Shown: positions 9,438-40,449, numbered from the stretch's first letter. The stretch is DNA of 64,000 bases from Akkermansia muciniphila (GCA_945870025.1 CAMBQN010000014.1:1-64000); one strand, 5' to 3'. The notes: generated from the letters alone by a model not told the origin. Made by a program: numbers and translations.

Positions 9438-9466
9438 ACGCGCGAGACAAAACAGGAGTGCCGTTC

Positions 9467-12124: not shown

Positions 12125-12157
12125 CCCGCGAAGACAGAACAACGAGGAGGCAAACAG

Positions 12158-14848
12158 ATGACAGCCACCAGCAAGCGCATTCCCGTGAAACTAGCCGGCG
12201 AGTCCGGCGTCCGATACGGCAGCGAACCCATAACCTTCGGCGTTCCCTTTGCCGAAGGTGCCCTCCCGGCCGGCGCGCACCTGCGTGCCGTACGGGCTGA
12301 CGGCAAGGAACTGCCCCTGCAAACCTCTCCGGTGACGACCTGGAAGAAAGACCTCAAGGACGTCAAATGGATCGTTGCCGATTTGCAAGCCGACCCCGCC
12401 GTGGACGGGGAGACGGTGTTTCTGGAGCCGATCACGTCGGACAAGTCGGACCGGTCCGACAAGACCAGCTCGATTACCATCACCAACGCCAACGGCATCA
12501 TGACCGTGGACACCGGCGCGCTCCGCCTCAAGATGCGCACCGACTACGAGCGCTGGCGCCTGCGCGAGAACACCTCGCCCTTTGCCGGTTGTCAGATCAA
12601 GACTGCGGACGGCTGGCGCGATGTATGGCAGGGGACCGGTCTGCTGCTCTACATGAAAGACCAGCACGGCAATCTCTACACCTCGGAGGGGATCTGCCCT
12701 GCGCCGCGAATTGTCGTGGAGGAACAGGGAGCCCTGCGCGTCTGCCTGCTGGTCACCGGACACCTCTATTCCGCCCAGGGACTGCGTTTCTGCCCCTACA
12801 AGTTGCGCATCCACCTCTATGCCGGAAAAGCCGACCTGCGGATCTTCCACACGTTCGTTTTTGATCAGGACCCGACCCGCATCCAGTTGAAGGCTATCGG
12901 ATTGAAAGTGTTCGCGAAGACGGGCGACGGCGCCGTGGCGGCCGTGGGCGGGGAAGGCGCGATTGCGCACGCCAACCGCAATCTGACCCCCGACGTGAAC
13001 GGCTATGCCACCATGGGCGCCATTGGTTGCGACCAGGTGCGCGAGCGGCCCAATCTCACCAACACCACCTCCGGCCAGCTTTCGATCCTGCAATTCGACG
13101 ACCTGCACTATGCCGCCCGGTTGAACGATCAGCCCTTTGGCGCTGGCGGCAAGGCGACGGGCTGGGCCAGCCTCAGCGGACCCGAGGCGAGCGTGGTGGC
13201 CGGCATCCGCGACTTTTGGCAGGAGTATCCGAAGGGGTTTGCCGTGTCGTCCGCCGGTATCGACATTCGCATCTGGCCGGAAGACGCGCCTCAGCCGCTC
13301 AGCTTCCTGTGTCCGTTTGATGAGCCGCCGATCGATTTCCACGGCACGCGGGACGAGGAGGAGATCAAGCGCCTGATCGCCGAGAACCCGACCGCGCCGC
13401 TGTCGCTGCGGCAGTTCCACACAGACGACGTCAAATGGATTGAAGACGTGATGGCCCGCCTCGCGCCGGGGCGGAAGATGAGCTACAACGATTTCATGGG
13501 GCCGTTCACCGGCATTGGCACGGCCAAGACCACCGAGATCGTGCTGCGGTTTACGGAGGGGCAGATCCCCACGGCCGATGCCGCCGCCTTCGGCGCCGCC
13601 GTGCAGGAACCGCTCGTCGGCATCGTGGACCCCGGCTACCTTTGCGGCACCGATGTGTTCGGCGGCTTCCTGCCTGCCGGTCACCCGCATTTCGAAGAGC
13701 TGGACCGGGAGCTGACGGCGTTCCACGAGCGCATCCACGTCAAACCGATCCAGCGCGCGCGACGCTACGGCATGTTCATGTATGGACACATGATTAACGC
13801 GCATTCGCCCTCGACGCCGGACGCGGTGCATAACCTCTACATCAATAGCGACGAACCGGAGAAGGCGCTGCGTTACGTCGGGCCCTTCGGCAACGAGGCC
13901 GCCGACAGCGTGCAGTGGGTCTGGAGCCAGTTCCTGCGCAGCGGCCGGCGCTGCGATCTGCGCTGGGCGCAGCTCGCTTCACGTGCCACGGCCGACACCA
14001 GCTTCGTGCATGCCTTCCCGGGCCACGAAGAAAACGTCGGCTGCATCCACTACCACGGGCCGCACGTCTGGCACAACGGACTCAACCGGTCGCACTCCAA
14101 TGTCGGCGGGATCGCGATGGACTACTACGTGACCGGCAACCGCCGGCTGCGCGATGTCATCCTCGAGGCGGCGGACGGCCTCGCCGACAACAAGCTGGAA
14201 CCCTGCGGGATCATCACCTGCTTCGCGCCCATCTCGCGGGAGTTCGTCATTCCGGTGGCGATCCTGCTGGAGGCGTACCAGATCAACTGGCATGAGAAGT
14301 ACGGCACGCCGGCCGAGCGCTCGGTCAACTGGTTCCTGCGCACGGTGCGCACGCCGGGCTTCTTTCCCGCGCACGTGTTCACGCGCGGGCCGCGCGGCGA
14401 CCACGCCGAGGTCGAGGGGGAGGGTCTCGGCGTCTGCTGCAACGAGAGCCAGATGCTGCATCCCGCCATGCGCCTCTTTCCGTCTAAAGCGCTCCGGGAT
14501 TTTATTGCGGCCAACGGCGGGACAAACCCCGGTGATGTAACGAGCGAACGCGAGCAGGCCGCTGTCGCGGCGGGGATAAGCGGGTTCGCGGATGCGATCC
14601 GTAACGGCGGCAATCCGGGCCTCTACTGGCAATCCGCGTGCGACTGGGTGCCGCGCTCCATGAAGCTCGCCGCGCTGGCGGCGGAGAAGGATCCAGGCTT
14701 CTGGGAGTGGGCGGCGAAGTGGGCGGAACAGCAGAAGGCCAATCCGAAGCCACCACGGCCGATGCCGCCTGAAGTAAAGGGTCGGATCCAGCTCGGCGCG
14801 TTGAGCACGGAGCCGCACCCGGCAGACGGTCAGACCGCAATCGGATGA
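12158..14848 (+). CDS. PcRGLX/YetA-like protein, copy 2
   Basis: An 896-residue near-copy of the preceding gene. Almost every segment aligns without gaps, and the two DNA sequences stay very close even at third codon positions, so the duplication is recent or the copies are kept alike by gene conversion. Differences concentrate in a linker near residues 85-105, where this copy has an SDKSDRSDK tract encoded by three 9-base repeats, and around residues 780-830. Its ATG at 12158 has a strong AGGAGG site, 33 bases after copy 1, so they form an operon. Function is as for copy 1; the variable C-terminal third may give different oligosaccharide preference. Confidence 0.72.
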   Translation: MTATSKRIPVKLAGESGVRYGSEPITFGVPFAEGALPAGAHLRAVRADGKELPLQTSPVTTWKKDLKDVKWIVADLQADPAVDGETVFLEPITSDKSDRSDKTSSITITNANGIMTVDTGALRLKMRTDYERWRLRENTSPFAGCQIKTADGWRDVWQGTGLLLYMKDQHGNLYTSEGICPAPRIVVEEQGALRVCLLVTGHLYSAQGLRFCPYKLRIHLYAGKADLRIFHTFVFDQDPTRIQLKAIGLKVFAKTGDGAVAAVGGEGAIAHANRNLTPDVNGYATMGAIGCDQVRERPNLTNTTSGQLSILQFDDLHYAARLNDQPFGAGGKATGWASLSGPEASVVAGIRDFWQEYPKGFAVSSAGIDIRIWPEDAPQPLSFLCPFDEPPIDFHGTRDEEEIKRLIAENPTAPLSLRQFHTDDVKWIEDVMARLAPGRKMSYNDFMGPFTGIGTAKTTEIVLRFTEGQIPTADAAAFGAAVQEPLVGIVDPGYLCGTDVFGGFLPAGHPHFEELDRELTAFHERIHVKPIQRARRYGMFMYGHMINAHSPSTPDAVHNLYINSDEPEKALRYVGPFGNEAADSVQWVWSQFLRSGRRCDLRWAQLASRATADTSFVHAFPGHEENVGCIHYHGPHVWHNGLNRSHSNVGGIAMDYYVTGNRRLRDVILEAADGLADNKLEPCGIITCFAPISREFVIPVAILLEAYQINWHEKYGTPAERSVNWFLRTVRTPGFFPAHVFTRGPRGDHAEVEGEGLGVCCNESQMLHPAMRLFPSKALRDFIAANGGTNPGDVTSEREQAAVAAGISGFADAIRNGGNPGLYWQSACDWVPRSMKLAALAAEKDPGFWEWAAKWAEQQKANPKPPRPMPPEVKGRIQLGALSTEPHPADGQTAIG
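12437..12463 (+). repeat. In-frame 9-base repeat (x3) in copy 2
   Basis: TCGGACAAG, TCGGACCGG and TCCGACAAG follow each other and encode SDK-SDR-SDK. Copy 1 has an unrelated sequence at this point. A related nonamer (GATCCGTCS twice, encoding DPSDPS) occurs in the DUF3786 gene near 26406-26430. Confidence 0.75.
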
Positions 14849-26564: not shown

Positions 26565-28460
26565 TTACGGCGTCACGGATGGGAAGAGATTACGGTCCGT
26601 GTGCGGCAGGAAGAGGGCGGCGGTGTATTGGTCCATGTAGGTCGGGTCGGAGCTGAGATCGATGTAGGTCATGCGGCGGGCCAGTACAAGCTGGCGGCGG
26701 TGGTATTCCTGCGAGACCAGTACGATGTAGGAACCCATCAGCGACGAGTTGCCGACGTAGTGGAACTTCTCGCGTGGAAGGTCCGGAACCAAGCCGATGA
26801 CAATGGCTTTCTCGATGTTCAGGAAACGGCCGAACCCACCGCCGATGTAGATGTTGGCCAGGTCGGTGAAGGCGATGCCGGCGTGCTGCAGCAGAAGTGC
26901 GCAGGCGGCGTAGATGGCGGCCTTGGCGCGGATGATATTCTCGATGTCGATCTCGCTGACCTGAATGGCGTGGTCCATGCCGCTTTCGTGCAGGGGGGCC
27001 AGCAGGTAATACGCGTGGCGTCCCTGCACGCGGATGGCGTGTGAGGGGCGCGTGCGGTCCAGCTTGCCGGATGCGTCGATCCAGCCGGTGCGGAGCAGGT
27101 CCGCCAGCAGGGCGATCATGCCAGAGCCGCAGATTCCCTTGGGCTTGCCGCCGCCGATGGTCCAGTAGTGCGGCAGACCGGTGGCGGCATCGACCTCGAC
27201 CCACTCAATGGCGCCAATGGCGGCGCGCATGCCGCATTCGATGCCGGCGCCCTCGAAGGCCGGCCCGGCCGAACAGGCGCAGGTCATCAGGAAATCCCGG
27301 TTGCCGATCACCAGTTCACCGTTGGTGCCGATGTCGATAAAAAGGTTGATCTGTTCGGTCTCCGTGGCAAGATCGGTGCAGAGCATGCCGGCGGTGATGT
27401 CGCCGCCGACATAGCTGCCCACGCAGGGGGAGAAACAGACCCACGACTCGGGGTTGATCTCCAGGCCGACCTCGACGGCGGTCAGGTAGGGTGTTTCGTG
27501 CAATGTGGGCGTATATGGATCCAGCCGGATGTACTCCGGGTTCAGGCCGAGGAGCAGGTGCAGCATGGTGGTGTTGCCGGAGATCACGGCATTGGAGATC
27601 TCGTCCGGGGCAACCGTGTGTTCTTGTGTCACCTGCCGCAGCAGGCGGTTGATCGTGTGGAGCGCACGGGTGCGGAGTTCTTCCAGCCGTTCCGGGCGGC
27701 GTGCATAGTTGATCCGGCTGATCACATCGAGGCCGCAGGCGACCTGCTCGTTGTAGTCGCTGCGCGTGCCGAGAATGGTGGCGGAGGTGAGGTCGACCAG
27801 TTGCACGGCAATGGTGGTGGTGCCCACATCCACGGCGATGCCATAATGGCGTACGGTCTGGTCGCCGGGTTCGACCCGGATCAGGTGAATTTCGTTCGAA
27901 GATCGGATCAGGGTGGTTGTGACGAGGCCCTGTTCAGCGCGCAGTGCATGGGTAAGGACGCGAAGCACGGAGAGCGGCGGCAGCACAGGTTGCGGACCCC
28001 AGTCATGCTGGATGCTGCGCGTCAGGCGGTCGAGATCCGAGAGTCCGTCGCCCAGTTGCGGGAGCGGCACCCGGACGAGCCACTTCATGGCCATGGGCTC
28101 GTACTCCCATTTGCGTGGCAGTAGTTCGCCGCGGACCAGGGCGGTCTCATCGCCGCCGGCGATGCGCATCCCCTCGCGACCGGAGGCCTCGGGGACCTCG
28201 ACAGTCAGCGGCTCGGCGCCCAAGCGCGTGCGACAGGCCAAGACATGGCCAGCCGCCACAGCATCTGCGGAGAGGACGCCCAGGCTGCTGCTGGAGTCCA
28301 CGTGGCCGTCCAGAATGCGCACGAGGCACTTGCCGCAGGTCCCCTTGCCGCCGCACGGTGCGTCAATTTCCACGCCAGCCTGGCGCGCGGCATCCAGCAG
28401 TTCCGTGTTGGACGGAACTTCAATGGATTTGCCGGAGGGACGGAAGGTGATGAGGGGCAT
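26565..28460 (-). CDS. Reductive activator of the corrinoid protein (RACo-like, DUF4445)
   Basis: A 631-residue protein with an N-terminal plant-type [2Fe-2S] ferredoxin domain (Cys at about 36, 42, 45 and 76; motif PCGGKGTCGKC), a linker, and an ASKHA-fold ATPase domain (IAVDVGTTTIAVQLVDL, ISGNTTMLHLLLG, FIDIGTNGELVIGN, GICGSGMIALLADLL, YIGGGFGRFLN). RACo uses ATP to drive electrons onto the cobalt of the corrinoid iron-sulfur protein when it becomes oxidised to Co(II). Its place directly after acsC fits. The ATG at 28460 is chosen over a TTG three codons upstream. The gene is bounded on both sides by heptamer arrays in inverted orientation. Confidence 0.9.
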   Translation of the reverse strand: MPLITFRPSGKSIEVPSNTELLDAARQAGVEIDAPCGGKGTCGKCLVRILDGHVDSSSSLGVLSADAVAAGHVLACRTRLGAEPLTVEVPEASGREGMRIAGGDETALVRGELLPRKWEYEPMAMKWLVRVPLPQLGDGLSDLDRLTRSIQHDWGPQPVLPPLSVLRVLTHALRAEQGLVTTTLIRSSNEIHLIRVEPGDQTVRHYGIAVDVGTTTIAVQLVDLTSATILGTRSDYNEQVACGLDVISRINYARRPERLEELRTRALHTINRLLRQVTQEHTVAPDEISNAVISGNTTMLHLLLGLNPEYIRLDPYTPTLHETPYLTAVEVGLEINPESWVCFSPCVGSYVGGDITAGMLCTDLATETEQINLFIDIGTNGELVIGNRDFLMTCACSAGPAFEGAGIECGMRAAIGAIEWVEVDAATGLPHYWTIGGGKPKGICGSGMIALLADLLRTGWIDASGKLDRTRPSHAIRVQGRHAYYLLAPLHESGMDHAIQVSEIDIENIIRAKAAIYAACALLLQHAGIAFTDLANIYIGGGFGRFLNIEKAIVIGLVPDLPREKFHYVGNSSLMGSYIVLVSQEYHRRQLVLARRMTYIDLSSDPTYMDQYTAALFLPHTDRNLFPSVTP

Positions 28461-28489
28461 AGGCGGCAATCATAGGGTGTTTCAAGCAA

Positions 28490-28528: not shown

Positions 28529-29872
28529 CTACCCCTTCAGCCGCGCCTTGACGAAGCTCTCGATGTCCGCGGCTTCCTGCGGCCCGACCAGGACCTTCCA
28601 GCCGGGGAGTGCCTCCTCGAGTTCGCCGCTGATCTGCGCGACGTAGCCGGGGATGACGATCTGGCGGGTGGTGACCTGCTTCTCGAGGCCGCTTTCCTTG
28701 ACGAACTTGCCGATCATGGCGCCTGAGAACTTGCCGGCTGCCCAGGAGGTGAGCACGCTCATCCCTTCGCATTCCGGCACCACCAGCCACGCGCTGATGC
28801 CGCTGTTCTCGATTTCACCGGAGACGATGAAGTAGGTCAGCGAGAAGTTGGTGGTCACGAATACCGGAGAATCCGCCTTGGGTTCGCCAATGGGGTAGAT
28901 CTTGGGCTCAACCTGGATCGGCTTCTGCGGGTCGGTGTAGACGTTCATCCGCAGGGTCATCAGCGGCGTCAACTGCGCCGGATCGAGCTGCGGCAGCACG
29001 CAGATGCCGCCGTACTTGCAGAAATGTACCGAGGCCTCGGTGGTGCCCGACAGCAGGTCCGTGGTCTCTACGAAGTGCAGGCTCGGGTACCCGAGCGGCT
29101 TGTAGTTGTCCTTGAGTGCCGCGCGCCGCGCGATGGAGTTGGTCTGGAACGCTTCGGCCAGCGAATGAGTTTGGAAGCGGAGAATCAGGTCATTAAAACC
29201 GCCCAGCTTGATCTTCGCGGACAACAACACCAGCTCGTTCAGATCGGGAGCGGTGATGGCCAGCGCGTGGCCGTTCTCTTTGGCCACAGTCACCAGCGTC
29301 TCAGAGGCCTCGGCGCTGGGCGCCACGAGCACACTACCGGAGCCCTTGACTGCGACGGCTGCCGCCGTGATTGCGGCGACGTCGGCGCCGCGCAGAACCA
29401 GAGGGCGCTTGACCGTCTCCCAGGCCTGTTTGCAGGCTGCGGCAAAGGTTGCGGCATCCTGGCTCATCTGCGTCACGGACACCAGGTCAACGATCAGCGT
29501 CTCGCCGACGCGCACGAGCGTGAAGTCGCGAATGGCCTGCAGCGCGGCGGCACGCGCGTCCGGTGCGTCCGTGTCGTTCACGTTGATCGCCAGCGCGGTC
29601 TGGTGGGCAAAGGTCTTCTCGTGGCGGTAGAGGACCGTCTCCGCACCGAGCTTAAGCGTCTTGTCCGCTCCGAGCGCGATCTCCTTCACGGGCGGCTCGC
29701 TGGCGGCACCCAGCACCTGCTTGGCCTCGTCGGAGGCGTACGGGCACTCCGAGAGTTCCGCTTTCTTCGCCGCGAGTTTCATGGCGAACGCGAGGCAGGT
29801 GTTGGACCCGCACTCCTTGCAGTTTGTTTTCGGGAGAAGCTTTTGGATCTGGAGACCTGTCAGAGCTGCCAT
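28529..29872 (-). CDS. acsC: Corrinoid/iron-sulfur protein large subunit
   Basis: The 447-residue gamma subunit of the corrinoid iron-sulfur protein (CFeSP). The N-terminus carries the [4Fe-4S] motif KTNCKECGSNTCLAFAMK with a fourth Cys in SECPY. A TIM-barrel middle and a C-terminal B12-binding domain with SVLTSWAAGKFSGAMIG follow. CFeSP carries the methyl group on cobalt to acetyl-CoA synthase. I place the start at the ATG at 29872 (MAALTGLQIQKLLP), where family homology begins. The frame stays open upstream through the heptamer array for another 26 codons, but this would only add repeat-encoded residues. Its small-subunit partner is fused to AcsB upstream. Confidence 0.93.
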   Translation of the reverse strand: MAALTGLQIQKLLPKTNCKECGSNTCLAFAMKLAAKKAELSECPYASDEAKQVLGAASEPPVKEIALGADKTLKLGAETVLYRHEKTFAHQTALAINVNDTDAPDARAAALQAIRDFTLVRVGETLIVDLVSVTQMSQDAATFAAACKQAWETVKRPLVLRGADVAAITAAAVAVKGSGSVLVAPSAEASETLVTVAKENGHALAITAPDLNELVLLSAKIKLGGFNDLILRFQTHSLAEAFQTNSIARRAALKDNYKPLGYPSLHFVETTDLLSGTTEASVHFCKYGGICVLPQLDPAQLTPLMTLRMNVYTDPQKPIQVEPKIYPIGEPKADSPVFVTTNFSLTYFIVSGEIENSGISAWLVVPECEGMSVLTSWAAGKFSGAMIGKFVKESGLEKQVTTRQIVIPGYVAQISGELEEALPGWKVLVGPQEAADIESFVKARLKG

Positions 29873-29882
29873 AGGGACCTCG

Positions 29883-29938
29883 TTCTTTGTTCTTTGTTCG
29901 TGGTTCTTAGTTCTTAGTTCTTGGTTCGTGGTTCTTGG
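29883..29938. repeat. Heptamer array R3 (TTCTTGG family x8)
   Basis: Eight consecutive 7-base units: TTCTTTG x2, TTCGTGG, TTCTTAG x2, TTCTTGG, TTCGTGG, TTCTTGG. It overlaps the 3' end of the four-helix-bundle gene: its last codons are repeat-encoded (ending EPRTKN) and its stop TAA (29907-29909) comes from a TTCTTAG unit. Confidence 0.95.
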
Positions 29939-30338
29939 TTGCTGGCGCATCGATCGGTGGAGCTGGTTTGCGTCGGTCTTGGGTCAGCAGATACTTGATA
30001 AAGCCACCAATGATAGCGCGAGTAACCTGTGCCTGTTTGTAGATGGCCGTAAATTCATCTTCGGACACGTATTCCTGATCCAAAGCTACATAGAGCGCGC
30101 TTTGAACTTCAGTGCAAGAACGTTGCGCATATCGCAGAAACTTGACGAATTCGGTGTTGCCGCCACTGTCAAACCCCTCGGCGACATTGAGCATGATCGA
30201 GACACACGCGCGCTGCGTCTGATCCTTCAGCCCGAAGTCGTGGCTGAATGGCCCCTTCTTAGTCGCCGCATACGCCATCTTAGCCAGCGCGCGAGCCTGC
30301 TTCCAGCCATCAATATCCTCAAATCGGTTGATTCGCAC
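29907..30338 (-). CDS. Four-helix-bundle protein (S23/IVS, Avd-like family)
   Basis: A 143-residue protein of the PF05635-type four-helix-bundle family: RFEDIDGWKQARALAKMAYAA, FGLKDQTQRACVSIMLNVAEGF and EFVKFLRYAQRSCTEVQSALY are typical. Family members occur as reading frames in 23S rRNA intervening sequences, as Avd in diversity-generating retroelements, and as orphans of unknown role. The start is a GTG at 30338 with AAAGGAG upstream. The last residues (TKNHEPRTKN) are encoded by the heptamer array. It interrupts the acs operon between acsB-D and acsC and is flanked by inverted heptamer arrays, which suggests it came in as a unit. No reverse transcriptase or rRNA is nearby. Confidence 0.85.
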   Translation of the reverse strand: MRINRFEDIDGWKQARALAKMAYAATKKGPFSHDFGLKDQTQRACVSIMLNVAEGFDSGGNTEFVKFLRYAQRSCTEVQSALYVALDQEYVSEDEFTAIYKQAQVTRAIIGGFIKYLLTQDRRKPAPPIDAPATKNHEPRTKN

Positions 30339-30473
30339 GCCAACTCCTTTCGGATCATCCACACGGGTGGATGCCAAAGATTCTGCGAAGAGAAACAGAC
30401 TTCATTTGCATGAACTTCCAAAATTCCTTTTTGCGCCGTTTACCCATGATTTCGCTCATCGGCCATGCTCCAG

Positions 30474-30529
30474 CCAAGAACTAAGAACCAAGAACTAAGA
30501 ACCAAGAACTAAGAACCAAGAACTAAGAA
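30474..30529. repeat. Heptamer array R4 (CCAAGAA/CTAAGAA alternating, x8)
   Basis: Eight units in strict alternation of CCAAGAA and CTAAGAA, i.e. a 14-base higher-order repeat copied four times. It lies directly after the acsB-D stop and is the inverted partner of R3 across the four-helix-bundle gene. Confidence 0.95.
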
Positions 30530-30535
30530 CTCTCC

Positions 30536-33500
30536 CTAATCCATCATCCGATCAATCGCGTTCTTCAACTCGCGCGCGGCGTCGGGATGATACATGATGA
30601 AGAGATCGGCGCCAGCGTGGAGGAAGCCGAGCGCGGTGGTGAGTTCCCACTGCGCGGCACGCTTGCCCAGGTCGCCCCAGGACGGGAAGTCCTTCTCCGC
30701 AGCCTTGCACTCCTTGACCTTGGCGCACTCCTGGCCGGGCGAGACAATCATCGGCCCGGCGAGCATCTTGTCGCCGCCCAGGCCGGTCAGGCGGATGCGT
30801 TCCATCACGGAGTAGGTGTACTCGATGCCATACCCGAGCGCGCCGGTCAAGGGGTCCATGACAATCTGGCCGGTCTTCACGTCCATGTTCGTCATCAGGA
30901 TGTTGAGCTGCTTGGCGATGTTGACGTCAATGGGCGCCTGCGACACCAGCGCGTGGCCGTAGCCGATGGCGGCGCCGGCGATGGTGCGGTAGTTGTTCTG
31001 CTCCACCCAGTTCAGCAGCAAGTTCTCGCCGGCGCAGGCCTGAGCCACGGCTTTCATGACCTCGTTGTTGCGGTCGAAGTGGTTGTGCCCGGTGATGATC
31101 AGCGGCACGTCCACCGCCTGCAGCACGGACTTCACGACGGCCACGGCCTGTTCGGCTGAGCGGTTGCCGCGTTCCGGATGCGTGCCGTCGAGGCGCACGC
31201 TGATCAGTTCTGCGCCGTATTTTTCCACACAGAGCTTCGCCATGGCGGCCGGATTGTTCAGCACCGGGCCGTAAATCTCGCGCAGTACGGCCGGGTATTT
31301 CTCGCTGACTATATCAAACACTTCCAGGGCCACGCGCGGCCGGTTGGGCAGTGCGCCTTCCCACAGATGGAACGGCATGGCCTCTGCGCCACCGATCGTA
31401 TAGGAGCGGCCGCGGGTGCCGCCTTCCTGCTTGGTGGCGCCGAGCTTGACGGTCCACACCGGGCACTCCGGTTTCTCCTTGCGGATGTTGAAGGCCTGGA
31501 CGGCGCCGATGCGCTCGGAAGCCTTGGGTGCTTTCGTTCCTGGTTCTTCGTTCTTGGTTCTTGGTTCTTGGATGTTTGCTGCGGCCGGTGCTACACCCAG
31601 GAACTGCTGGCTGAGCGTGCCGATGATGGACTGCACGACCTCACGCATGATGGATGCGCGCATCTCGGCCAACGACTCGGCGGTCACCGCTGGCGATTCT
31701 TGGTTCTTGGTTCTTGGTTCTTCGTTCTTGGTTGGTGGTTGGCTGTTGGTTGTTACCGCCGGCTGTTCGCTGGAAGCGGGCGTCGCAGCGGCTTCGGCAT
31801 ACGAGGCCATGTCCGGCAACTGCAGCGCCGGGTGACCGTTCTTTTCCATGAAAGCCTTGATCGTGGCACCGTCCGCGCCCACGGTTTCATCGGCAATTTG
31901 GTCGAGCAAGTCTGGCGCGCCCTGCTCCGCGAAACGTTTCTTGAGGTCGTCGGCCAGGAGCGTCTTGAGTTCCTTCGGCATCCAGACCAGGCGCTTGAAG
32001 CCGCCCTCGGCAAAGAGGAACTTCTTCGAGGTCAGGAAGACCTTGCCGCACCCCATGAAGCCCGGCGTCTGCTGACCGCCGCCGACATTGCCGGCCAGTG
32101 ACGAGAAGGTCATGCCGGCCGGGGTTTCGCCCTGGAACTCGCGGTTGACCACCATGACGCCGTTGCACTCCGGCACGTAGGCCACGATCACCTCAAAGCA
32201 ACCGCAGCTCGTCATGGGGTTGTTCATGAGCGAGTAGGCGCTGAAGGAGGTGACGGCTTTGTGGCTGGTGGTGTAAACAAAGTCGTCGATGCCCTTCCAG
32301 ATTCCCTTGACCGGGTCCAGGCATTCGCCCTTCTTGATGGGCTGGTTCGGGCCGGTCTCGTCAATCTCGTAGGCCGCCTTGCCGTCCAGCCAGTTGTAGG
32401 CGCCGCAGAGGCCGAGGCGCTCGGGCGTGATCACGCAGACGTGGTTGGGCGCGAACGACTGACAGAGGAGGCAGGAGTAGAAGATATCAACCGACTCGTC
32501 GGTCATGGATTCCAGCCGGCGGTTGCGCTCGTCGTAGACCTTGCGCGCCACAGCCACGCGCTTTTCAACTTCCTTGGCATCGGTGACCATCGTCACCTTG
32601 ACCTTGTCCACGATGGCCGGGTACTCGGAGAGCAGCTTGGCGTGCAGGATGTCGCCGTAATGACGCAAGCGCAGCCCCTTGGCAAAACCGGCCTTGGAGA
32701 CGCGCGTCCAGACAATGTCGCGCTGACCCATGTGCCAGATGCCTTCGGCGCCGTTGACAAGATGGTGTATCTGGCGTTCCAGGATCGGCTCAAAGTCGGG
32801 CTGCATCTTGCGACCGGCGACCTCGACCCAGATGGCCAGCGGGAGGGCGGTGCCGGCAGGGACCTGATCGATGTCAGGGCCGATCACTTCGACGTCGCCG
32901 TCGTTGATCTGGTCTAGGGCGACCGACGTGACGAACTCGAAGGCCGTGGTGCGGTTGCCGCCGAACTCGACCTGCACGTCCGCCTTGCGGATGCGTTCGC
33001 CCTCGAAGGCGGCGCCGTAGGGGACGGGGATCGGGACCTGGGTGATCTTGACCTTGCAGCCGCGCACTTCAAGCGCGCGCTCGACCATGGTGGCGTGCGG
33101 CACGTTCGAGACCACATGCTCGTAGGTGCAGACGCCGGTGGGGAGGATCTGGGGGATGTCGGTGTCGGCGATGACCGGGAAGCCGTAGTTGATGGCGCCT
33201 GCGGCTGCGGCATACTTCTCGGGCGTGACTTCGCCCAAAGCCAGCACGAACGCAAAGACGCGGTCCTTGTTGTAGCGGAGATTCGCCTGGAAATCACCGG
33301 GCTTGACGCCGCCGAACGAGAGCGCAGCCCGGTTGGCAAATCCCAGCGCATAAATCGCGGCGGAGACGTCGCGCCCGAACGGCACGAGGCGTGTCTCCCA
33401 CCCGAGCTGCACGCCGGCCTCGGCGAGCTGCTCGGCAAACTGCACGCCGTTGGTGCAGCCGGCCATGAACACGTAGAGGTTTTTCTGCTGGAGCTCGCGG

Positions 33501-33982
33501 GCGATCTGCACGGCGATCTCCTTGGTGGGCGCGGCGCCCACAATGGCCGCAAAGCCGGGCGCTGTGCCGTCCACGAACTCGATGCCGCGCTCGCGCATGA
33601 TCACGTCGTTGGCGGCCCCGAGCCAGATGCCGTCCACGGGGTTCGGCCCGATCACGTACTTGCAGGCCTCGATGATTTCGCAGGCGAAGAGCGCGGCTAC
33701 GCCCGCGTCCAGCGTATTGCCGAGGTAGGGAAGCCAGACCTTGGCCGATGGGCGCTGCGGGAGGAGCTGCTTGGCGCGGCGCAGGATATTGCGCATGTCG
33801 CCCAGGGTTGCGACCTTCTCGCCGGTGAGCGAATAGATCACGGGCAGGAAGTAGGCGGTGTTCGGGAAGGCCACCGGCGACGACTCGCCCTTGGCCTGAA
33901 TCGCCTCCGCCAGCTTGGTTTCGGCCTGGGCCACCCAGGCAATGGCTCCGTCAATGGCGCTGCTGCAGATGATCTTAGACAT
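30536..33982 (-). CDS. Acetyl-CoA synthase fused to CFeSP small subunit (AcsB-AcsD)
   Basis: A single 1148-residue frame. Residues 1 to about 725 are full-length bacterial AcsB. The A-cluster ligands are all present: Cys504, 507, 516 and 526 for the [4Fe-4S] cube and the Cys593-Gly-Cys595 motif for nickel, matching the Moorella enzyme with a constant offset of two. Residues of about 830-1148 are AcsD, the TIM-barrel small subunit of CFeSP (KLGATKQEGGTRGRSYTIGG, GNHSV-like GNRSAEQAVAVVKSVLQAV, GYGIEYTYSVMERIRL). The linker of about 105 residues contains two repeat-encoded tracts (NEEPRTKNQES and QEPRTKNEEPGTK) around a helix-like stretch. The AcsD segment should still pair with AcsC. It overlaps acsA by 8 bases. 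A sequencing artefact is unlikely because the frame is continuous and both enzymes are intact. Confidence 0.93.
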   Translation of the reverse strand: MSKIICSSAIDGAIAWVAQAETKLAEAIQAKGESSPVAFPNTAYFLPVIYSLTGEKVATLGDMRNILRRAKQLLPQRPSAKVWLPYLGNTLDAGVAALFACEIIEACKYVIGPNPVDGIWLGAANDVIMRERGIEFVDGTAPGFAAIVGAAPTKEIAVQIARELQQKNLYVFMAGCTNGVQFAEQLAEAGVQLGWETRLVPFGRDVSAAIYALGFANRAALSFGGVKPGDFQANLRYNKDRVFAFVLALGEVTPEKYAAAAGAINYGFPVIADTDIPQILPTGVCTYEHVVSNVPHATMVERALEVRGCKVKITQVPIPVPYGAAFEGERIRKADVQVEFGGNRTTAFEFVTSVALDQINDGDVEVIGPDIDQVPAGTALPLAIWVEVAGRKMQPDFEPILERQIHHLVNGAEGIWHMGQRDIVWTRVSKAGFAKGLRLRHYGDILHAKLLSEYPAIVDKVKVTMVTDAKEVEKRVAVARKVYDERNRRLESMTDESVDIFYSCLLCQSFAPNHVCVITPERLGLCGAYNWLDGKAAYEIDETGPNQPIKKGECLDPVKGIWKGIDDFVYTTSHKAVTSFSAYSLMNNPMTSCGCFEVIVAYVPECNGVMVVNREFQGETPAGMTFSSLAGNVGGGQQTPGFMGCGKVFLTSKKFLFAEGGFKRLVWMPKELKTLLADDLKKRFAEQGAPDLLDQIADETVGADGATIKAFMEKNGHPALQLPDMASYAEAAATPASSEQPAVTTNSQPPTKNEEPRTKNQESPAVTAESLAEMRASIMREVVQSIIGTLSQQFLGVAPAAANIQEPRTKNEEPGTKAPKASERIGAVQAFNIRKEKPECPVWTVKLGATKQEGGTRGRSYTIGGAEAMPFHLWEGALPNRPRVALEVFDIVSEKYPAVLREIYGPVLNNPAAMAKLCVEKYGAELISVRLDGTHPERGNRSAEQAVAVVKSVLQAVDVPLIITGHNHFDRNNEVMKAVAQACAGENLLLNWVEQNNYRTIAGAAIGYGHALVSQAPIDVNIAKQLNILMTNMDVKTGQIVMDPLTGALGYGIEYTYSVMERIRLTGLGGDKMLAGPMIVSPGQECAKVKECKAAEKDFPSWGDLGKRAAQWELTTALGFLHAGADLFIMYHPDAARELKNAIDRMMD
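31537..31571. repeat. Heptamer array R5, in frame inside acsB-D
   Basis: Five units (TTCCTGG, TTCTTCG, then TTCTTGG x3), exactly 35 bases. On the coding strand it reads QEPRTKNEEPGTK and lies between the helical AcsD N-terminal segment and the AcsD core. No stop-forming TTCTTAG unit is present. Confidence 0.93.
31697..31752. repeat. Heptamer array R6, in frame inside acsB-D
   Basis: Five clean units (TTCTTGG x3, TTCTTCG, TTCTTGG; 31697-31731) followed by three decayed ones (TTGGTGG, TTGGCTG, TTGGTTG). It encodes most of the linker between the AcsB C-terminus and AcsD, including NEEPRTKNQES. It has no stop-forming unit. Confidence 0.92.
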
Positions 33983-35924
33983 TGGCTTCTCTCCGGTCCT
34001 TCATATCCAGCAATTTACGCTCGACCTTGCGGTTGATGCCGAGCTTTTCACGTTTCTCTTCCAACAGTTGCAGGCAGCGGGCAGCGGCGTCGGCCGCCGA
34101 GTCGCAGACGTGGAACGACGCGCCGAAGTCTTCCTTCGTGCCAGCGTTCAGGTAGTGGGTCACGTTCTCTGAGCCGCTGATGTAGAACGGGTGGCCGAGG
34201 ATCACGTCCACGCCGGAAGCCACAAAGTAGCAGCCGATGGCAATGGCCTTCTCACTCATCCACTCCGGCGCCACGCCCACGGCCGGCACCTTCGAGAGGT
34301 CGTCGCCGAGGCCGCCCTCGTGGACGATCTCCGTGGCCGCCTCCAGCAGGCGCGAGTTGTCCACGCAACTGCCCATGTGCAGGATGGGCGGGATGCCGAC
34401 GGCCTCGCAAACCTCGCGCAGACCGGCGCCGGCGAACTGCAGCGCGGTCTCCGGTGTGAGCCAGCCGCGCTTGCCCGATGAGATGGCGGAACAGCCGGTC
34501 TTGAGGACCAGAACATTCTGCTTGATCAGCTCGGTCGTGAGGTCGTTGGTGTATTCGTCGCTCTTGGACTTGGGGTTGTTGCAGCCGACAATGCCGACCA
34601 CGCCGCGGATGCGCCCCTGCATGATGGCGTCGTTCAGCGGACGGAACGAAGCGCGGTAGGAGCCGCCCAGCATGTACTTGATGGCCTCCACGCTGAAGCC
34701 GGCGACCATCTGCTCGCTGTGCTTCGGGATGAGGACCTTCTTCGGGTCGCGGTTCTTGTAGTTGTCGATCGCGCGTTTGAGGATGGCCTTGGCGGAACCG
34801 ACGCCGTCGTGCTCGTCGAACCGCATGTGCGCGGCGCCGGTGGTCTGGGCCATGTCTGCGGTCGAGACTACCTCGGTGTGGTAGGACTTGGCAACCAGCG
34901 GCAGGCTGGGCATGCAGCACTGCACGTCCACGACCATCATCTCCACGGCGCCGGTGATGATGGCCAGTTCCTGCTGGAGGAAGTTGCCGGCCACCGGGAT
35001 GCCATGGCGCATCAGGATCTCATTGGCGGTGCAGCAGAGGCCGGCCAGGGTCACGCCTTCCGCGCCTGCGGACTTGGCGTAGGCCTTGATCTCCGGATCA
35101 TCCACCATCACGGCCAGCATGTCCGAGAGTGTCGGATCATGGCCGTGCACGATGATGTTGACGGTCTTCTCGCCGAGCACGCCGAGGTTGGCGGCGCCGC
35201 GGATCGGGGTGGGGGTGCCGAAGAGGATGTCCGATGCGATGGTGCCTATGCGCGCGCCGCCCCAGCCGTCTGCCAGCGAGACGCAGAAGGCGTGGCGCAG
35301 AAGGTTGCGGTAGTCGTGGTCCACACCCATGGTGGTGCGGTGCATGGCCTCGACCACCATGCGGTCCACGCCGAAGGGTACCACGCCGTGCTTCTCCCAG
35401 ATGGCCTGCCGCTTGGTTGGTGCGAGCTGCAGCGTCTTGAGCGGCTCCTCCTGCGAGGTGAACTCGCCCAGGAAGAGGTTGGCCAGGTCGAGGGCCACGG
35501 CTTCCTTGGTGCGGCCGATCTCCTCGATCTGGTAGAGGCGCGCGGAGTAGCGCAGGGCGCGCTCGTCCTTGATCTCGTACCCGCCGCCGTGCCCTTGGGC
35601 CACGTTCCGGAGGAGCAGCACGAGGTGGCGCGCATGGTCGGAATGCGCGGCCGTGCCGCCGCTGACCTCGCGCAGGAAGTTGCGGGCCACGATGGTGTCT
35701 GCGTCTGCGCCGCAGACGCCGCGGGGCGACTTGGGCGTGATCCGGCAGGGTCCCATGTGGCAGATCTTGCAGCAGACGCCCTTGGTGCCGAAGGTGCACT
35801 GGTTCTTCTGCGTGTCCATGCGGCTGAAACAGGTGTCCACGCAGTCGCACCCGGCCTTGTCAATCAAGGCGATGGATGCCGCGTCAACGGCCCGGTCGGT
35901 CGATGTCTTTACTTCATTGGCCAT
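33975..35924 (-). CDS. acsA: Carbon monoxide dehydrogenase catalytic subunit
   Basis: The 649-residue Ni-Fe-S CODH (CooS/AcsA). The N-terminus holds the D- and B-cluster cysteines (Cys43, 51, 52, 55, 60 and 71; motif CCKICHMGPC). The C-cluster ligands are present along the chain: His in IVHGHDPTLSD, Cys in GLCCTANE, VQCCMPSL, GIVGCNNP, KTGCSAIS and MGSCVDN; the conserved acid-base Lys lies in WMSEKAIAIG. It reduces CO2 to CO for acetyl-CoA synthase, or oxidises CO in the reverse direction. The stop overlaps the acsB-D start by 8 bases, so the two are coupled. Length and residues are normal for a functional enzyme. Confidence 0.96.
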   Translation of the reverse strand: MANEVKTSTDRAVDAASIALIDKAGCDCVDTCFSRMDTQKNQCTFGTKGVCCKICHMGPCRITPKSPRGVCGADADTIVARNFLREVSGGTAAHSDHARHLVLLLRNVAQGHGGGYEIKDERALRYSARLYQIEEIGRTKEAVALDLANLFLGEFTSQEEPLKTLQLAPTKRQAIWEKHGVVPFGVDRMVVEAMHRTTMGVDHDYRNLLRHAFCVSLADGWGGARIGTIASDILFGTPTPIRGAANLGVLGEKTVNIIVHGHDPTLSDMLAVMVDDPEIKAYAKSAGAEGVTLAGLCCTANEILMRHGIPVAGNFLQQELAIITGAVEMMVVDVQCCMPSLPLVAKSYHTEVVSTADMAQTTGAAHMRFDEHDGVGSAKAILKRAIDNYKNRDPKKVLIPKHSEQMVAGFSVEAIKYMLGGSYRASFRPLNDAIMQGRIRGVVGIVGCNNPKSKSDEYTNDLTTELIKQNVLVLKTGCSAISSGKRGWLTPETALQFAGAGLREVCEAVGIPPILHMGSCVDNSRLLEAATEIVHEGGLGDDLSKVPAVGVAPEWMSEKAIAIGCYFVASGVDVILGHPFYISGSENVTHYLNAGTKEDFGASFHVCDSAADAAARCLQLLEEKREKLGINRKVERKLLDMKDRREANV

Positions 35925-36030: not shown

Positions 36031-36792
36031 TCAGTCAGTAATCGTCTTCAAAAAACCATCCACGCGTTTCACCAGTTCGTTCTCCGCCGGCAGCTCGGCA
36101 ATCGGGCCTCCACGCTCCCCGAGCGCGGCCACCTCGGCGTTGTCCGGCAGCGCCAGCACATAATCGGCGCCGGTTTCGCGCCGGATGGCGTCGAGTTCGT
36201 CCGGCAGTTGATCGTGGCGCAGGCGGTTGACGACCAACGCCAGCTTGCCGTAGGAGACTTCCATCTCCCGGGCCAGCGCGTGCAGGCGGCGCAGGGTTTC
36301 GAGTCCCCGGCGCGAAGGATCGGCCACCATCACCAGCACATCCACCTTCTGCGACAGGCGGCGGGACAGATTCTCCAATCCGGCTTCGTTGTCAATCACG
36401 ATCCACGGATAATGGTGCGCAATCTTCTCCAGCGCCGTCCGCAGCACGTTGTTCGCGTAGCAGTAACAGCCGGGGCCCTCGGGTCGGCCCATGGCGAGAA
36501 AGTCGAAGTCCGCGCCTTCCACCAGACTCTCCGCGATCTTGATCTCCAGCATTTCCTGCTTGGAGATGCCGGCCCCCATCCCTTTGCCGGCGATGATGCG
36601 CGCCTCTTCGCGGGCGCTGCCGATGGTTTGCTTCAATGAAATGCCGAGCACGGTGTCGAGGCAGGTGTTGGGGTCGGCATCCACCGCCAGCACCGGACGC
36701 CGGTTGCCGGCAATCAGTCGCGAAACCACCAGCCCGGAGACCGTGGTTTTGCCGACGCCGCCTTTTCCTGTGATGGCAATGGTGAAGGACAT
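36031..36792 (-). CDS. cooC: CooC-type nickel-insertion ATPase 1
   Basis: A 253-residue MinD-like P-loop ATPase with deviant Walker A GKGGVGKTT near the N-terminus, the switch DADPNTCLD, and the metal-binding Cys-x-Cys in EGPGCYCYANN (dimer-interface CYC). The VVIDNEAGLENLSRR-like block is typical of CooC/AcsF. These proteins load nickel into the CODH C-cluster, or into ACS. The gene lies immediately upstream of acsA. The 5' gap carries a different heptamer array (TTCAGGT). Confidence 0.9.
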   Translation of the reverse strand: MSFTIAITGKGGVGKTTVSGLVVSRLIAGNRRPVLAVDADPNTCLDTVLGISLKQTIGSAREEARIIAGKGMGAGISKQEMLEIKIAESLVEGADFDFLAMGRPEGPGCYCYANNVLRTALEKIAHHYPWIVIDNEAGLENLSRRLSQKVDVLVMVADPSRRGLETLRRLHALAREMEVSYGKLALVVNRLRHDQLPDELDAIRRETGADYVLALPDNAEVAALGERGGPIAELPAENELVKRVDGFLKTITD

Positions 36793-37057: not shown

Positions 37058-37831
37058 TCATCCTTTCTCCAGCTTGTCCAGAATGTCCTCAAACTTTTGC
37101 AGCAATTCCGGCTGCATGTCATCCAGCACGGAGCGTCCTTCGCGGTCGGCGCCGCGCAGTTGTTCGGTGTAAGGGATCATGCCCAGCAGCTCCTCGTCAC
37201 GGAAGGCCGCCCGCACAAAAGCCTCATCCGCAGGGCTGGTGATTTTGTTCCCCACCACGCGAAATCGGCGCAAGCCGATTTCGGCGCCGAGGGTCTTCAC
37301 GTGGCGTGCGGTTTCGATCGAACGCTGGCCGGGTTCGACCACGATGATCAGGGTGTCCACGCCGTGCGTGGTGCCACGGCCGAGGTGTTCAATCCCCGCC
37401 TCCATGTCCATGACCAGCGCCTCATTGCGATGCAGCACGACGTTGGAAACCAGCGCCTTCAGCAGCACGTTCTCCGGGCAGGCGCAGCCGCCGCCGCCGC
37501 GCGTAACCGCCCCGAGCACCAGCAAGGCCACGCCCGCATGCCGCCAGGCGTAGGCGTCGGCAATGTCGGCGACATCCGGGTTCATCTTGAACATCTGCCC
37601 GAACTTGCCGGCCTGGGCGCCGGTGCGCTCCTCGATCAGGGCGATCTGCCGGGCGATCGGCACGATTCGCTCTCGCACGGCTGCTGGAATTCCCAGCGAG
37701 GCCGCCAGGTTGGCGTCCGGGTCGGCATCCACGGCCAGCACGGTGCGGCCACGCCGCACCAGCAGCAGCGCGAGCGCTGCTGCCAGCGTGGATTTGCCCA
37801 CGCCGCCTTTACCGCTGATGGCGAGTTTCAT
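37058..37831 (-). CDS. cooC: CooC-type nickel-insertion ATPase 2
   Basis: A 257-residue paralogue of cooC1: deviant Walker A GKGGVGKST at residues of about 7-15, DADPDANLAASLG, and the Cys-x-Cys metal site GGGGCACPENVLLKAL. Two CooC-like ATPases beside acsA and acsB suggest one for CODH and one for the A-cluster of ACS, as with the acetogen paralogues CooC and AcsF; which is which cannot be told. The start ATG at 37831 directly abuts heptamer array R7 on the coding strand (…CCAAGAAC then ATG). The frame stays open upstream through the array, adding 47 repeat-like codons that I exclude. Confidence 0.9.
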   Translation of the reverse strand: MKLAISGKGGVGKSTLAAALALLLVRRGRTVLAVDADPDANLAASLGIPAAVRERIVPIARQIALIEERTGAQAGKFGQMFKMNPDVADIADAYAWRHAGVALLVLGAVTRGGGGCACPENVLLKALVSNVVLHRNEALVMDMEAGIEHLGRGTTHGVDTLIIVVEPGQRSIETARHVKTLGAEIGLRRFRVVGNKITSPADEAFVRAAFRDEELLGMIPYTEQLRGADREGRSVLDDMQPELLQKFEDILDKLEKG

Positions 37832-37832
37832 G

Positions 37833-37888
37833 TTCTTGGTTCTTGGTTCTTGGTTCTTGGTTCTTGGTTCGTGGTTCGTGGTTCTTCG
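37833..37888. repeat. Heptamer array R7 (TTCTTGG family x8)
   Basis: Eight units: TTCTTGG x5, TTCGTGG x2, TTCTTCG. It begins one base after the cooC2 start codon. Its inverted partner is R7b at 37948, with a 59-base spacer containing a GC-rich imperfect palindrome (GCGGCTCGTGAGGCCGC). Confidence 0.95.
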
Positions 37889-37947
37889 TTGCGGCTCGTG
37901 AGGCCGCTCGCCCTCCAGGTTGGAGCGTATGCGGCTGGCGACAGCAA

Positions 37948-37975
37948 CCAAGAACGACGAACAAAGAACCACGAA
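37948..37975. repeat. Heptamer array R7b (CCAAGAA family x4)
   Basis: Four units: CCAAGAA, CGACGAA, CAAAGAA, CCACGAA. It lies directly after the zinc-ribbon gene stop, in inverted orientation to R7. Confidence 0.9.
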
Positions 37976-38336: not shown

Positions 38337-39398
38337 TCAGAACTTGTACGTGGCCTTCATCGCCTTCGACAGGGCGCTGAGGGACTCGAAAACCTTCATC
38401 GCGTCTGCCGGGTCCAGCGAGCCGGTGCCGCACGAGGGGGTGATGAGCGCCTGAGCGGCGATCTGCTGCCGGTCGATCCCCGTGGCAGCCAGGTGCTGCA
38501 TTCCCTGCTCGAGCTTGGCGGCGAGCGACTCGACCGTCTGCTCCCGGATGATCGAGGAGGTCGGCACTACGCCCCAGGCCAAGAGTCCGCCTTTGTTCAG
38601 ATGGGCCTTGACGCTGGCGGCGTACATGGCAATGGTTTCGCCGAAGCCGAAGGCATCGAAGTTCACGATGTCCACGCCAGCATCGATCAGGATGCTCCAC
38701 TCGGTGTTGCCGCAGCAATGCACGCCTGCGAGCGCGCCGTCGGCGTGGATCGCCTCGACGACCTCGTTGACGCGCGCCACGACGTCTTCGCGCTTGACCG
38801 ATACGTAGGTCGAGCTGCCGAAAGCCGAGAGGATCGGCTCGTCAATGAAGCAGATCACGCGCTCCGCATAGGGGCGGAACTTCTGGATCTGCCAGCGGCA
38901 CTTCATGGCCAGAGCCTTGACGATCATGTCGAGAAATTCCTCGTTGTAGTAGATGGCGCGTTTGTTCTCGTCCACGAGTGTGAGCGCGAAGCTGCACGGG
39001 CCGGTGGTCTGCACCTTGACGGCTGGGAGTTTGCGTCCCAGAGCCTTCAGCTTCTTCTCGAGCGCCGGGATGCCGCGGGAGAATTCGGGACCGATCGCCA
39101 GGGCAGAGCAGTCGCCGGTCTCGGTCGAGGTCATGTACTTCTCGTAGAACTGCGCGAAGGCATCCGAGTAGTCCTGGTTGGTCTGGAAGAACATGCGCTG
39201 CTTTTCGCGGTCGATCACCGCACAGGGCATCCCCTCGGAGTACTGGATCTCCATCTGCTCGTTCATGCCGAACTTCGGCAGTTGTGGCCAGATCGGCGCC
39301 TCGGAGAGGTGCTTCAGCGAAACATCTACGGCATAGTCGGCATTGTCAAACGGCATGCTGCCAATGGCAGTGGCCATGAATTTGGGTTGGAAGGACAT
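38337..39398 (-). CDS. MetE/UroD-like cobalamin methyltransferase
   Basis: A 353-residue single-domain protein of the MetE C-terminal / UroD superfamily (ATAIGSMPF start, then QTTGPCSFALTL, ICFIDEPILSAFGSSTY, GVHCCGNTEWSILIDAGVD and PSCGTGSL). The His-Cys of GVHCCGN and the Cys of PSCGTG are the expected zinc ligands that activate a thiol or accept a methyl group. It is far too short for methionine synthase MetE, which has two barrels. Similar genes accompany CODH/ACS clusters. It may move methyl groups between CFeSP-type corrinoid and another carrier. The start at 39398 follows GAGGAACGAACG, a ribosome-site-like stretch supplied by the heptamer array. Confidence 0.78.
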   Translation of the reverse strand: MSFQPKFMATAIGSMPFDNADYAVDVSLKHLSEAPIWPQLPKFGMNEQMEIQYSEGMPCAVIDREKQRMFFQTNQDYSDAFAQFYEKYMTSTETGDCSALAIGPEFSRGIPALEKKLKALGRKLPAVKVQTTGPCSFALTLVDENKRAIYYNEEFLDMIVKALAMKCRWQIQKFRPYAERVICFIDEPILSAFGSSTYVSVKREDVVARVNEVVEAIHADGALAGVHCCGNTEWSILIDAGVDIVNFDAFGFGETIAMYAASVKAHLNKGGLLAWGVVPTSSIIREQTVESLAAKLEQGMQHLAATGIDRQQIAAQALITPSCGTGSLDPADAMKVFESLSALSKAMKATYKF

Positions 39399-39404
39399 CG
39401 TTCG

Positions 39405-39467
39405 TTCCTCGTTCTTCGTTCGTAGTTCTTGGTTTTTAGTTCTTGGTGCCGCGTTCTTGGTTTCTGG
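39405..39467. repeat. Heptamer array R9 (degenerate TTCTTGG family x9)
   Basis: Nine units in register, several decayed: TTCCTCG, TTCTTCG, TTCGTAG, TTCTTGG, TTTTTAG, TTCTTGG, TGCCGCG, TTCTTGG, TTTCTGG. It lies just upstream of the methyltransferase start. Inverted partner R9b is at 39512. Confidence 0.88.
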
Positions 39468-39511
39468 TTAAGAGGCTGCCGCGTGATTTCGTGTGCTGAG
39501 CATTCTCCCAA

Positions 39512-39539
39512 CCAAGAACCAAGAACGAAGAACCAAGAA
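39512..39539. repeat. Heptamer array R9b (CCAAGAA x4)
   Basis: Units CCAAGAA, CCAAGAA, CGAAGAA, CCAAGAA directly after the homocysteine methyltransferase-like stop, inverted to R9 across 44 bases. Confidence 0.93.
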
Positions 39540-39552
39540 CGAACATTTACTT

Positions 39553-40449
39553 CTACTTCTTCAGCCCATCCACCGCCTTGCGGATGGCGTTGATGTGGGC
39601 GGGCGTGGTGCCGCAGCAGCCGCCGATGATGTTTGCGCCGGCAGCGACCAGCGCCGGGACCAGCTTGGCCATGTCTGCCGGAGTGTCCGGGAAGATGTCC
39701 GCGCCGTTCACGCTCTTCGGCAGGCCGGCGTTGGCATGCACGAGGATCGGCGTGGTCGGGGTGGCCTCGCGCATTTCGCGCACAATCTCGATCATGCGTT
39801 CCATGCCATTGCCGCAGTTGGTGCCGATGACATGCGCGCCAGCCTCGACCAGGGCCCTAGCCGCATCGGCCGGAGAGACGCCCATCATGGTGCGGTATTC
39901 ATCCTTCGTGTTCTTCTCAAAGGTGAAGGTGCAGATGACCTCGCAGGAGGTGTGTTTGCGGGCAGCCTGAACGGCCAGAACAGCTTCGTCAATGGCGCTC
40001 ATGGTCTCGATGCAGAGCGCATCCGCGCCGCCCTTGGCCAGCGCCACGGACTGCTCCCGGAAGGATTCGAAGATCTGCTCCTCGCTGACGTCGCCCAAAG
40101 CCAGCATCTGGCCGGTGGGGCCGACTGAGGCGATTACCCACTTGTCGGGACCGGCGGCCTGACGGGAGATCCGGGCCGCGGCTTCGTTGATCGCGGCGAC
40201 GCGGCCTTCCAAACCAAAGTGCTTCAGCTTGAAGGAGGTGCCACCAAAGCTGTCGCTTTCAATCATGTCCGCGCCAGCCTGAATGTAGCTGCGGCCGATG
40301 TCCTCCACGTCCGCGGCGTGCTCGATGTTCCAGAGTTCCGGACATTCGCCCGGCTTCATCCCCTTCTTCTGCAGGAAGGTGCCCCAGGCGCCGTCCGACA
40401 CCAGAATGCGGCCACTCTTGATGGCTGCGACGATCTTCTGTTTTGCCAT
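39553..40449 (-). CDS. Homocysteine S-methyltransferase-domain protein
   Basis: A 298-residue protein equal to the N-terminal (homocysteine-binding) barrel of cobalamin-dependent methionine synthase MetH. It has ILVSDGAWGTFLQ, ESDSFGGTSFKL, the first zinc Cys in GTNCGNG and the paired cysteines in GGCCGTTPAHI. It can therefore activate a thiol as methyl acceptor. Free-standing MetH-type domains occur in CODH/ACS and methylotrophic loci, where they work with a corrinoid protein. With no acsE in the window, it and the MetE-like protein are the visible methyltransfer candidates. The start has AAGGAG nine bases upstream. It is not repeat-associated at its 5' end. Confidence 0.85.
   Translation of the reverse strand: MAKQKIVAAIKSGRILVSDGAWGTFLQKKGMKPGECPELWNIEHAADVEDIGRSYIQAGADMIESDSFGGTSFKLKHFGLEGRVAAINEAAARISRQAAGPDKWVIASVGPTGQMLALGDVSEEQIFESFREQSVALAKGGADALCIETMSAIDEAVLAVQAARKHTSCEVICTFTFEKNTKDEYRTMMGVSPADAARALVEAGAHVIGTNCGNGMERMIEIVREMREATPTTPILVHANAGLPKSVNGADIFPDTPADMAKLVPALVAAGANIIGGCCGTTPAHINAIRKAVDGLKK

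Follow-up and report, generated by a model that had tools for sequence, protein, structure and literature searches.

Acetyl-CoA synthase (ACS, encoded by acsB) and the small subunit of the corrinoid iron-sulfur protein (CFeSP, encoded by acsD) are separate proteins in the bacterial carbon monoxide dehydrogenase (CODH)/ACS systems of Moorella thermoacetica, Carboxydothermus hydrogenoformans and Clostridium autoethanogenum. Within the Wood-Ljungdahl pathway, methyl transfer from CFeSP to the A-cluster of ACS has been poorly visualised, as the encounter of the partners is only transient. CFeSP is a standalone protein in acetogens but is permanently and stably bound in the archaeal acetyl-CoA decarbonylase/synthase (ACDS) complex, whose ACS has at its C-terminus some 75 additional, flexible residues with no assigned function (PMC11474084). 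Here we describe a gene, acsBD, in which some 100 linker residues join AcsB and AcsD into one chain. It lies in a stretch of 64,000 nucleotides from Akkermansia muciniphila (GCA_945870025.1 CAMBQN010000014.1:1-64000), referred to below as the window, and had been recognised as a fusion in an original prediction made on this DNA. The gene and its parts are as follows.

30536..33982, minus strand: acsBD fusion gene, a single ATG-to-stop frame of 1148 residues (124.5 kDa)
31808..33982, minus strand: AcsB (acetyl-CoA synthase) part, residues 1-725, with A1, A2 and A3 domains (NF040764, PF18537, PF03598, PF19436)
31493..31807, minus strand: linker, residues 726-830, a disordered stretch, a helix and a second disordered stretch, with no equivalent at the C-terminal end of unfused AcsB or the N-terminal end of unfused AcsD
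31697..31740, minus strand: in-frame heptamer array, residues 748-762 (QPPTKNEEPRTKNQE), on the AcsB side of the helix
31583..31681, minus strand: conserved fusion-specific linker helix, residues 768-800, defined by a profile match (E 5.6e-10), by column bits and by a helix in AlphaFold2 models
31533..31571, minus strand: in-frame heptamer array, residues 804-817 (IQEPRTKNEEPGTK), on the AcsD side of the helix
30536..31492, minus strand: AcsD (small CFeSP subunit) part, residues 831-1148 (NF003376)

The acsBD frame contains no internal stop codons, and both halves score above the cut-offs of their own families. Residues 10-724 match the NCBIfam equivalog model NF040764 with 1054.7 bits (cut-off 800) and residues 831-1147 match the subfamily model NF003376 with 377 bits (cut-off 280), in agreement with the predicted joining in one frame of AcsB, up to residue 725, to AcsD, from about residue 830. 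Residues 8-727 align with solved ACS structures and residues 831-1147 with solved CFeSP small subunits; the A1 region is found in the AcsB part, both by PF18537 and by the N-terminal domains of solved ACS, and an AlphaFold2 model of the AcsD part has the CFeSP small-subunit fold, with a template modelling (TM) score of 0.94 against 4djd_D (normalised by target). The A-cluster cysteines C504, C507, C516, C526, C593 and C595 are all present, as the original prediction had stated for the ligands of this cluster, and are invariant in 54 aligned relatives. acsBD is a genuine fusion of a complete AcsB and a complete AcsD.

As enzymes the two halves are classical: they are the same enzymes as in the three bacterial systems named above, with the same cofactor ligands, an A1-A2-A3 ACS and a 4djd-like AcsD fold; what differs is their covalent joining. 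In the archaeal ACDS (CdhA-E), CFeSP is permanently associated with CODH/ACS, as is proposed for the fusion. Archaeal ACS, however, has no A1 domain and is a chain separate from CdhD, whereas acsBD retains A1 and provides a covalent link; with A1 present and the chain joined to AcsD, the protein is not an ACS of the archaeal ACDS type (CdhC). The best reading is that acsBD may be the bacterial counterpart of the permanently associated complex of archaea. We found no description of an AcsB-AcsD fusion in the open full-text literature, a search that did not extend to the study of CODH/ACS subunits by Adam et al. 2018 (cited in PMC6344411). Each half is matched by its own NCBIfam model and no fusion model turned up in that database; since both curated models match one protein, acsD may be scored as missing in genomes that carry the fusion.

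Relatives were collected by a scan of one genome per species, of which the best 80 of 226 were retained. Among these, AcsB and AcsD are encoded in one frame, save for loci that are cut by contig ends or by a frameshift. The frameshifted locus (L073, 6001-9491) has a frame of 947 residues that is broken within the AcsD part, leaving AcsD in two pieces, possibly through a sequencing error. Within the same best 80 of 226, the fused metagenome-assembled genomes (MAGs) carry NCBI labels of 15 named phyla and of unplaced groups such as KSB1, Aminicenantes and SAR324.

Phylogenetic analysis of 103 AcsB domains (LG+G4) placed the fused proteins on one side of a single branch, with a Shimodaira-Hasegawa-like approximate likelihood ratio test (SH-aLRT) value of 100, and this branch was recovered under a C20 mixture model for 42 sequences (SH-aLRT 99). 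With both parts in one frame, an AcsB part that falls within the single fused clade, and a linker helix, the window protein belongs to the AcsB-AcsD fusion clade. In the AcsD tree all fused sequences group at SH-aLRT 99 together with one unfused sequence, L104. Since the fused loci, about 80 with MAG labels of 15 named phyla, form one clade, the fusion arose once in the sampled data and then spread; it is a single old event, long preceding the heptamer arrays, that was afterwards transferred widely.

L104 (genome G392) is the closest thing to a pre-fusion state that we have seen. Its AcsD groups with fused AcsD, but a stop codon follows AcsB and a cooC gene intervenes, the genes being separate and arranged acsB-cooC-acsD-acsC without any linker. 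The AcsB of this locus ends HPALSMPALF-stop and its AcsD starts MSFEIPKE, at the same point as the fused AcsD part. A protein of 1316 residues reported for G392 was considered as a further fusion and rejected, as the genes are separate. Convergent fusions within unfused groups were also sought, at five loci with long reported frames, and none of the five proved to be fused. Most of the sampled unfused operons have the order acsA-B-C-V-cooC-D or acsD-A-B-C, so that acsB and acsD are not neighbours; B-D-C and B-cooC-D-C arrangements are found in a few distant Bacillota.

Sampling of 388 genomes from the phylum to which the window belongs produced 26 with a match: about 15 are fused, 10 are unfused and 1 is left unclassed. 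Three other phyla were sampled, with counts taken from the listed frames and without the genome chosen as the centre: one, that of L079 (labelled Clostridia), gave 0 of 112, a second, that of L047 (labelled Deltaproteobacteria), 0 of 169, and the third, that of L030 (Spirochaetota), 8 of 25, two of the eight being already known fusion carriers. The fusion is the only match to an AcsB-AcsD query in 16 of 20 fusion-carrying genomes; in the other four the additional matches are split alignments of the fused frame (three genomes) or an extra weak fragment (one genome, E 3e-7), and the window's own genome has one match. As the fusion is normally the sole match per genome, it replaces separate AcsB and AcsD.

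Unfused AcsB ends right after the motif HPALxMxxLF, and unfused AcsD begins at an F-x-I-x-K-E motif, so the linker represents extra sequence. In the aligned stretch, fused relatives have linkers of 79 to 229 residues (median 140), with flanks rich in Ala, Pro and Glu that carry about 0.1-0.6 bits in most columns and a helix of 35-45 residues (consensus LTPxLIEQLKxQIxxEIxxELKxxLTxEIVRDIIGTLSEKFLG) in which many columns carry 2 to 4.3 bits. AlphaFold2 predicts one helix in the window linker, at residues 768-794, with predicted local distance difference test (pLDDT) values below 50 at residues 733-771 and 795-816; in the relative L085 it predicts a helix of 39 residues, with a pLDDT of about 79, flanked by stretches below 50. 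A helix profile of 44 positions, built without the window protein, detects the window linker with the E value given above and matched 100 sequence entries, some of which are duplicates of one genome; within the loci searched it matched neither unfused AcsB nor unfused AcsD nor any other gene of the operon. Comparison of the helix with Pfam, NCBIfam and PDB gave no significant homologue.

In four pairs of close relatives the non-synonymous divergence (dN) of the helix core was 0.05, 0.06, 0.13 and 0.01, as against 0.28, 0.38, 0.31 and 0.15 for the N-terminal flank, and the range for the helix (0.01-0.13) is close to that for the enzyme parts (0.03-0.09). These values indicate that the linker helix is under purifying selection and evolves nearly as slowly as the enzymes. 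Its hydrophobic moment is above that of shuffled sequences, though not significantly (p 0.09 and 0.18). The possibility that the helix was inherited from a longer standalone AcsD was examined, as the alignment with NF003375 starts at residue 779, but the linker alone fails that model, and the unfused AcsD proteins compared have no such extension.

We consider it probable that acsBD and its relatives descend from one old and widely transferred fusion that replaced the separate proteins, in which a flexible tether holds CFeSP on ACS, and that the arrays are a late addition. It is plausible that the linker tethers the small subunit of the methyl donor to the acceptor enzyme. AcsD would pair with AcsC, the product of a neighbouring acs gene, in a putative heterodimer, so that CODH/ACS would gain the whole CFeSP as a permanent but mobile component. 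The tether of ~100 residues, running from the C-terminus of ACS to AcsD, would keep the methyl carrier attached yet mobile, its flexible arms would let CFeSP move to and fro among the A-cluster, the methyltransferase and the AcsV activator, and the conserved helix could serve for docking or oligomerisation. The benefit would be that methyl donor is kept at a high local concentration near the A-cluster, in a fixed 1:1 stoichiometry. Such an arrangement may resemble that of swinging-arm enzymes such as the E2 component of 2-oxo acid dehydrogenases, in which flexible Ala/Pro/Glu-rich segments on either side of a small, conserved helical part likewise join enzyme to carrier; the acsBD helix itself has no significant match in Pfam or PDB. 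ACS must open in order to expose the A-cluster to CFeSP, and an AlphaFold3 model of the ACS-CFeSP complex has AcsD lying against the N-terminal domain of ACS (PMC12289521). A natural covalent fusion could provide a ready-made stoichiometric ACS-CFeSP complex for structural and kinetic work, and linker length plus helix may offer a design rule for engineered one-carbon fixation. More tentatively, and with the balance somewhat against it, the helix might be a new, specific docking or oligomerisation module through which, in combination with the fusion, a permanent bacterial CODH/ACS/CFeSP complex is assembled. This would be a third architecture beside the acetogen type and the archaeal ACDS; operon transfer would have carried it across many phyla, and it would have stayed hidden because annotation names the AcsB half only.

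Several observations weigh against an old, transferred and tethering fusion. Nearly all records are MAGs, the phylum labels of which can be wrong, and in the AcsD tree the fused sequences require two label changes, with the unfused L104 at their base. The predicted TM score of the full-length model is 0.49, so that the relative placement of AcsB and AcsD is uncertain. Three fused loci (L037, L040 and L087) have short linkers without the helix, and the basal fused locus L081 has an unrelated-looking linker; the helix is therefore strongly conserved but not strictly required, and these four loci may serve as natural controls for its function. The window helix is itself ~8 residues shorter and more diverged than usual, with 17 of 37 residues identical to L012 and a dN of 0.49.

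The alternative that fares best dispenses with kinetic tethering altogether: the fusion would mainly fix 1:1 expression and co-folding, and the linker would be a passive spacer. In many bacteria acsB and acsD share an operon, and the short helix-free linkers of some fused members would suit such a role. The helix, however, evolves far more slowly than its flanks and is found in nearly all members, whereas a spacer would not need a helix, and we regard this explanation as unlikely. It is much less likely still that the helix is a proteolytic or maturation element and that the mature complex contains separate AcsB and AcsD. Nothing speaks directly for such processing, although the disordered flanks would be accessible to proteases; no conserved motif resembling a cleavage site stands out, and the conserved positions are mainly hydrophobic positions of the helix.

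The original prediction proposed the arrays as a simple route to the fusion: heptamers inserted between adjacent acsB and acsD would have removed the stop codon and made the fusion in this lineage, and much of the linker would be array-encoded. The arrays are indeed in frame within the linker, both falling in disordered stretches, one on each side of the helix, and similar arrays (GTTCTTG/CAAGAAC) fill many spacers of the ACS operon between 26507 and 39540. Of the linker's residues, which number about 105, they encode 29, however, a quarter or so rather than much of it, and we reject them as the cause of the fusion. All other fused loci examined are array-free, such heptamer matches as occur singly in their linkers being there by chance. 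They include the closest relative found (L012, genome G008), which is 87% identical over residues 1-1148, has the same gene order and possesses an Ala/Pro-rich linker without heptamers; the aligned linker stretch of this array-free relative is longer than that of the window, not shorter (138 versus 125 residues). The apparent single old origin of the fusion also argues against the insertion route, as does the non-adjacency of acsB and acsD in most of the unfused operons sampled. The prediction had itself allowed that relatives with the fusion but without repeats would make the repeats secondary, and such relatives exist. Judged from these comparisons, the linker arrays are a late, recent and local insertion into disordered parts of a pre-existing linker, and as such were tolerated and did not cause the fusion. 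The repeats illustrate the reverse of the course originally proposed: a linker that is disordered beforehand is a place at which short arrays can invade a coding sequence. An assembly or sequencing artefact, or a stop codon lost in one draft genome (the window's genome is a draft in 59 contigs), is scarcely credible as the origin of the fusion, since about 80 independently assembled relatives share the one-frame architecture, which excludes an artefact as its cause, and the linker helix appears to be under purifying selection.

The distribution of the arrays bears on the origin of the operon. In the window's genome, 36 of 37 near-exact matches to a 15-base array sequence lie within 26.5-39.6 kb of the window; none occur in the same-genus genome G001, which lacks acsBD, and G008 has 94 over many contigs. 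As the arrays are nearly confined to the operon in the window's genome, horizontal acquisition of the operon is suggested. The right flank of the window is native to the genus (84-88% identity to G001 over about 53-64 kb), and the tetranucleotide correlation of the 26-41 kb region with the flanks is 0.93-0.94, compared with 0.97 between the flanks, a difference in composition that may lend weak support to horizontal acquisition. On the simplest reading, the source of the operon was an array-rich relative of G008, and the arrays entered, or already occupied, tolerant parts of the linker.

The genes surrounding acsBD within the operon are listed below.

26565..28469, minus strand: acsV, corrinoid activation protein of RACo type (NF040756 666 bits, below the cut-off of 800; PF14574, PF17651)
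28529..29872, minus strand: acsC, large CFeSP subunit (NF003195 505 bits)
29907..30377, minus strand: four-helix-bundle gene of the 23S rRNA intervening-sequence type, between acsBD and acsC (TIGR02436, PF05635)
33975..35924, minus strand: acsA, CO dehydrogenase (TIGR01702 614 bits), its 3' end overlapping the start of acsBD
36031..36792, minus strand: first cooC-like ATPase (P-loop ATPase family matches), kept upstream of acsA in fused loci
37058..37972, minus strand: second cooC-like ATPase, with an array at its 5' end

The order acsA-acsBD is also seen in other fused loci, and acsC is located downstream of acsBD in relatives too. The start of acsC is likely an internal ATG, the part upstream of that ATG being array-derived. 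Heptamer arrays lie on both sides of the four-helix-bundle gene (29882-29940 and 30474-30531), a copy of which, 73% identical, occupies the same position beside acsBD in L012. Further upstream, at 38337-40449, are MetE/UroD-like and homocysteine-methyltransferase-like genes that are kept upstream of cooC-acsA-acsBD in many fused-type operons. A pterin-binding domain (PF00809) is represented in the window's genome by one weak match only, of 80 bits, outside the window (contig C9, 60816-61424), and matches of 252-284 bits, not located at the operon, are present in five of six other fusion-carrying genomes. Because the window's genome is 81% complete, its assembly may simply lack AcsE.

Two further features of the window lie outside the operon. 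Short stretches within 52640-53180 match dozens of places in G001, which suggests a dispersed repeat family of the genus, and two adjacent near-identical genes at 9458-14848, encoding proteins of 888 and 896 residues, apparently reflect a recent tandem duplication.

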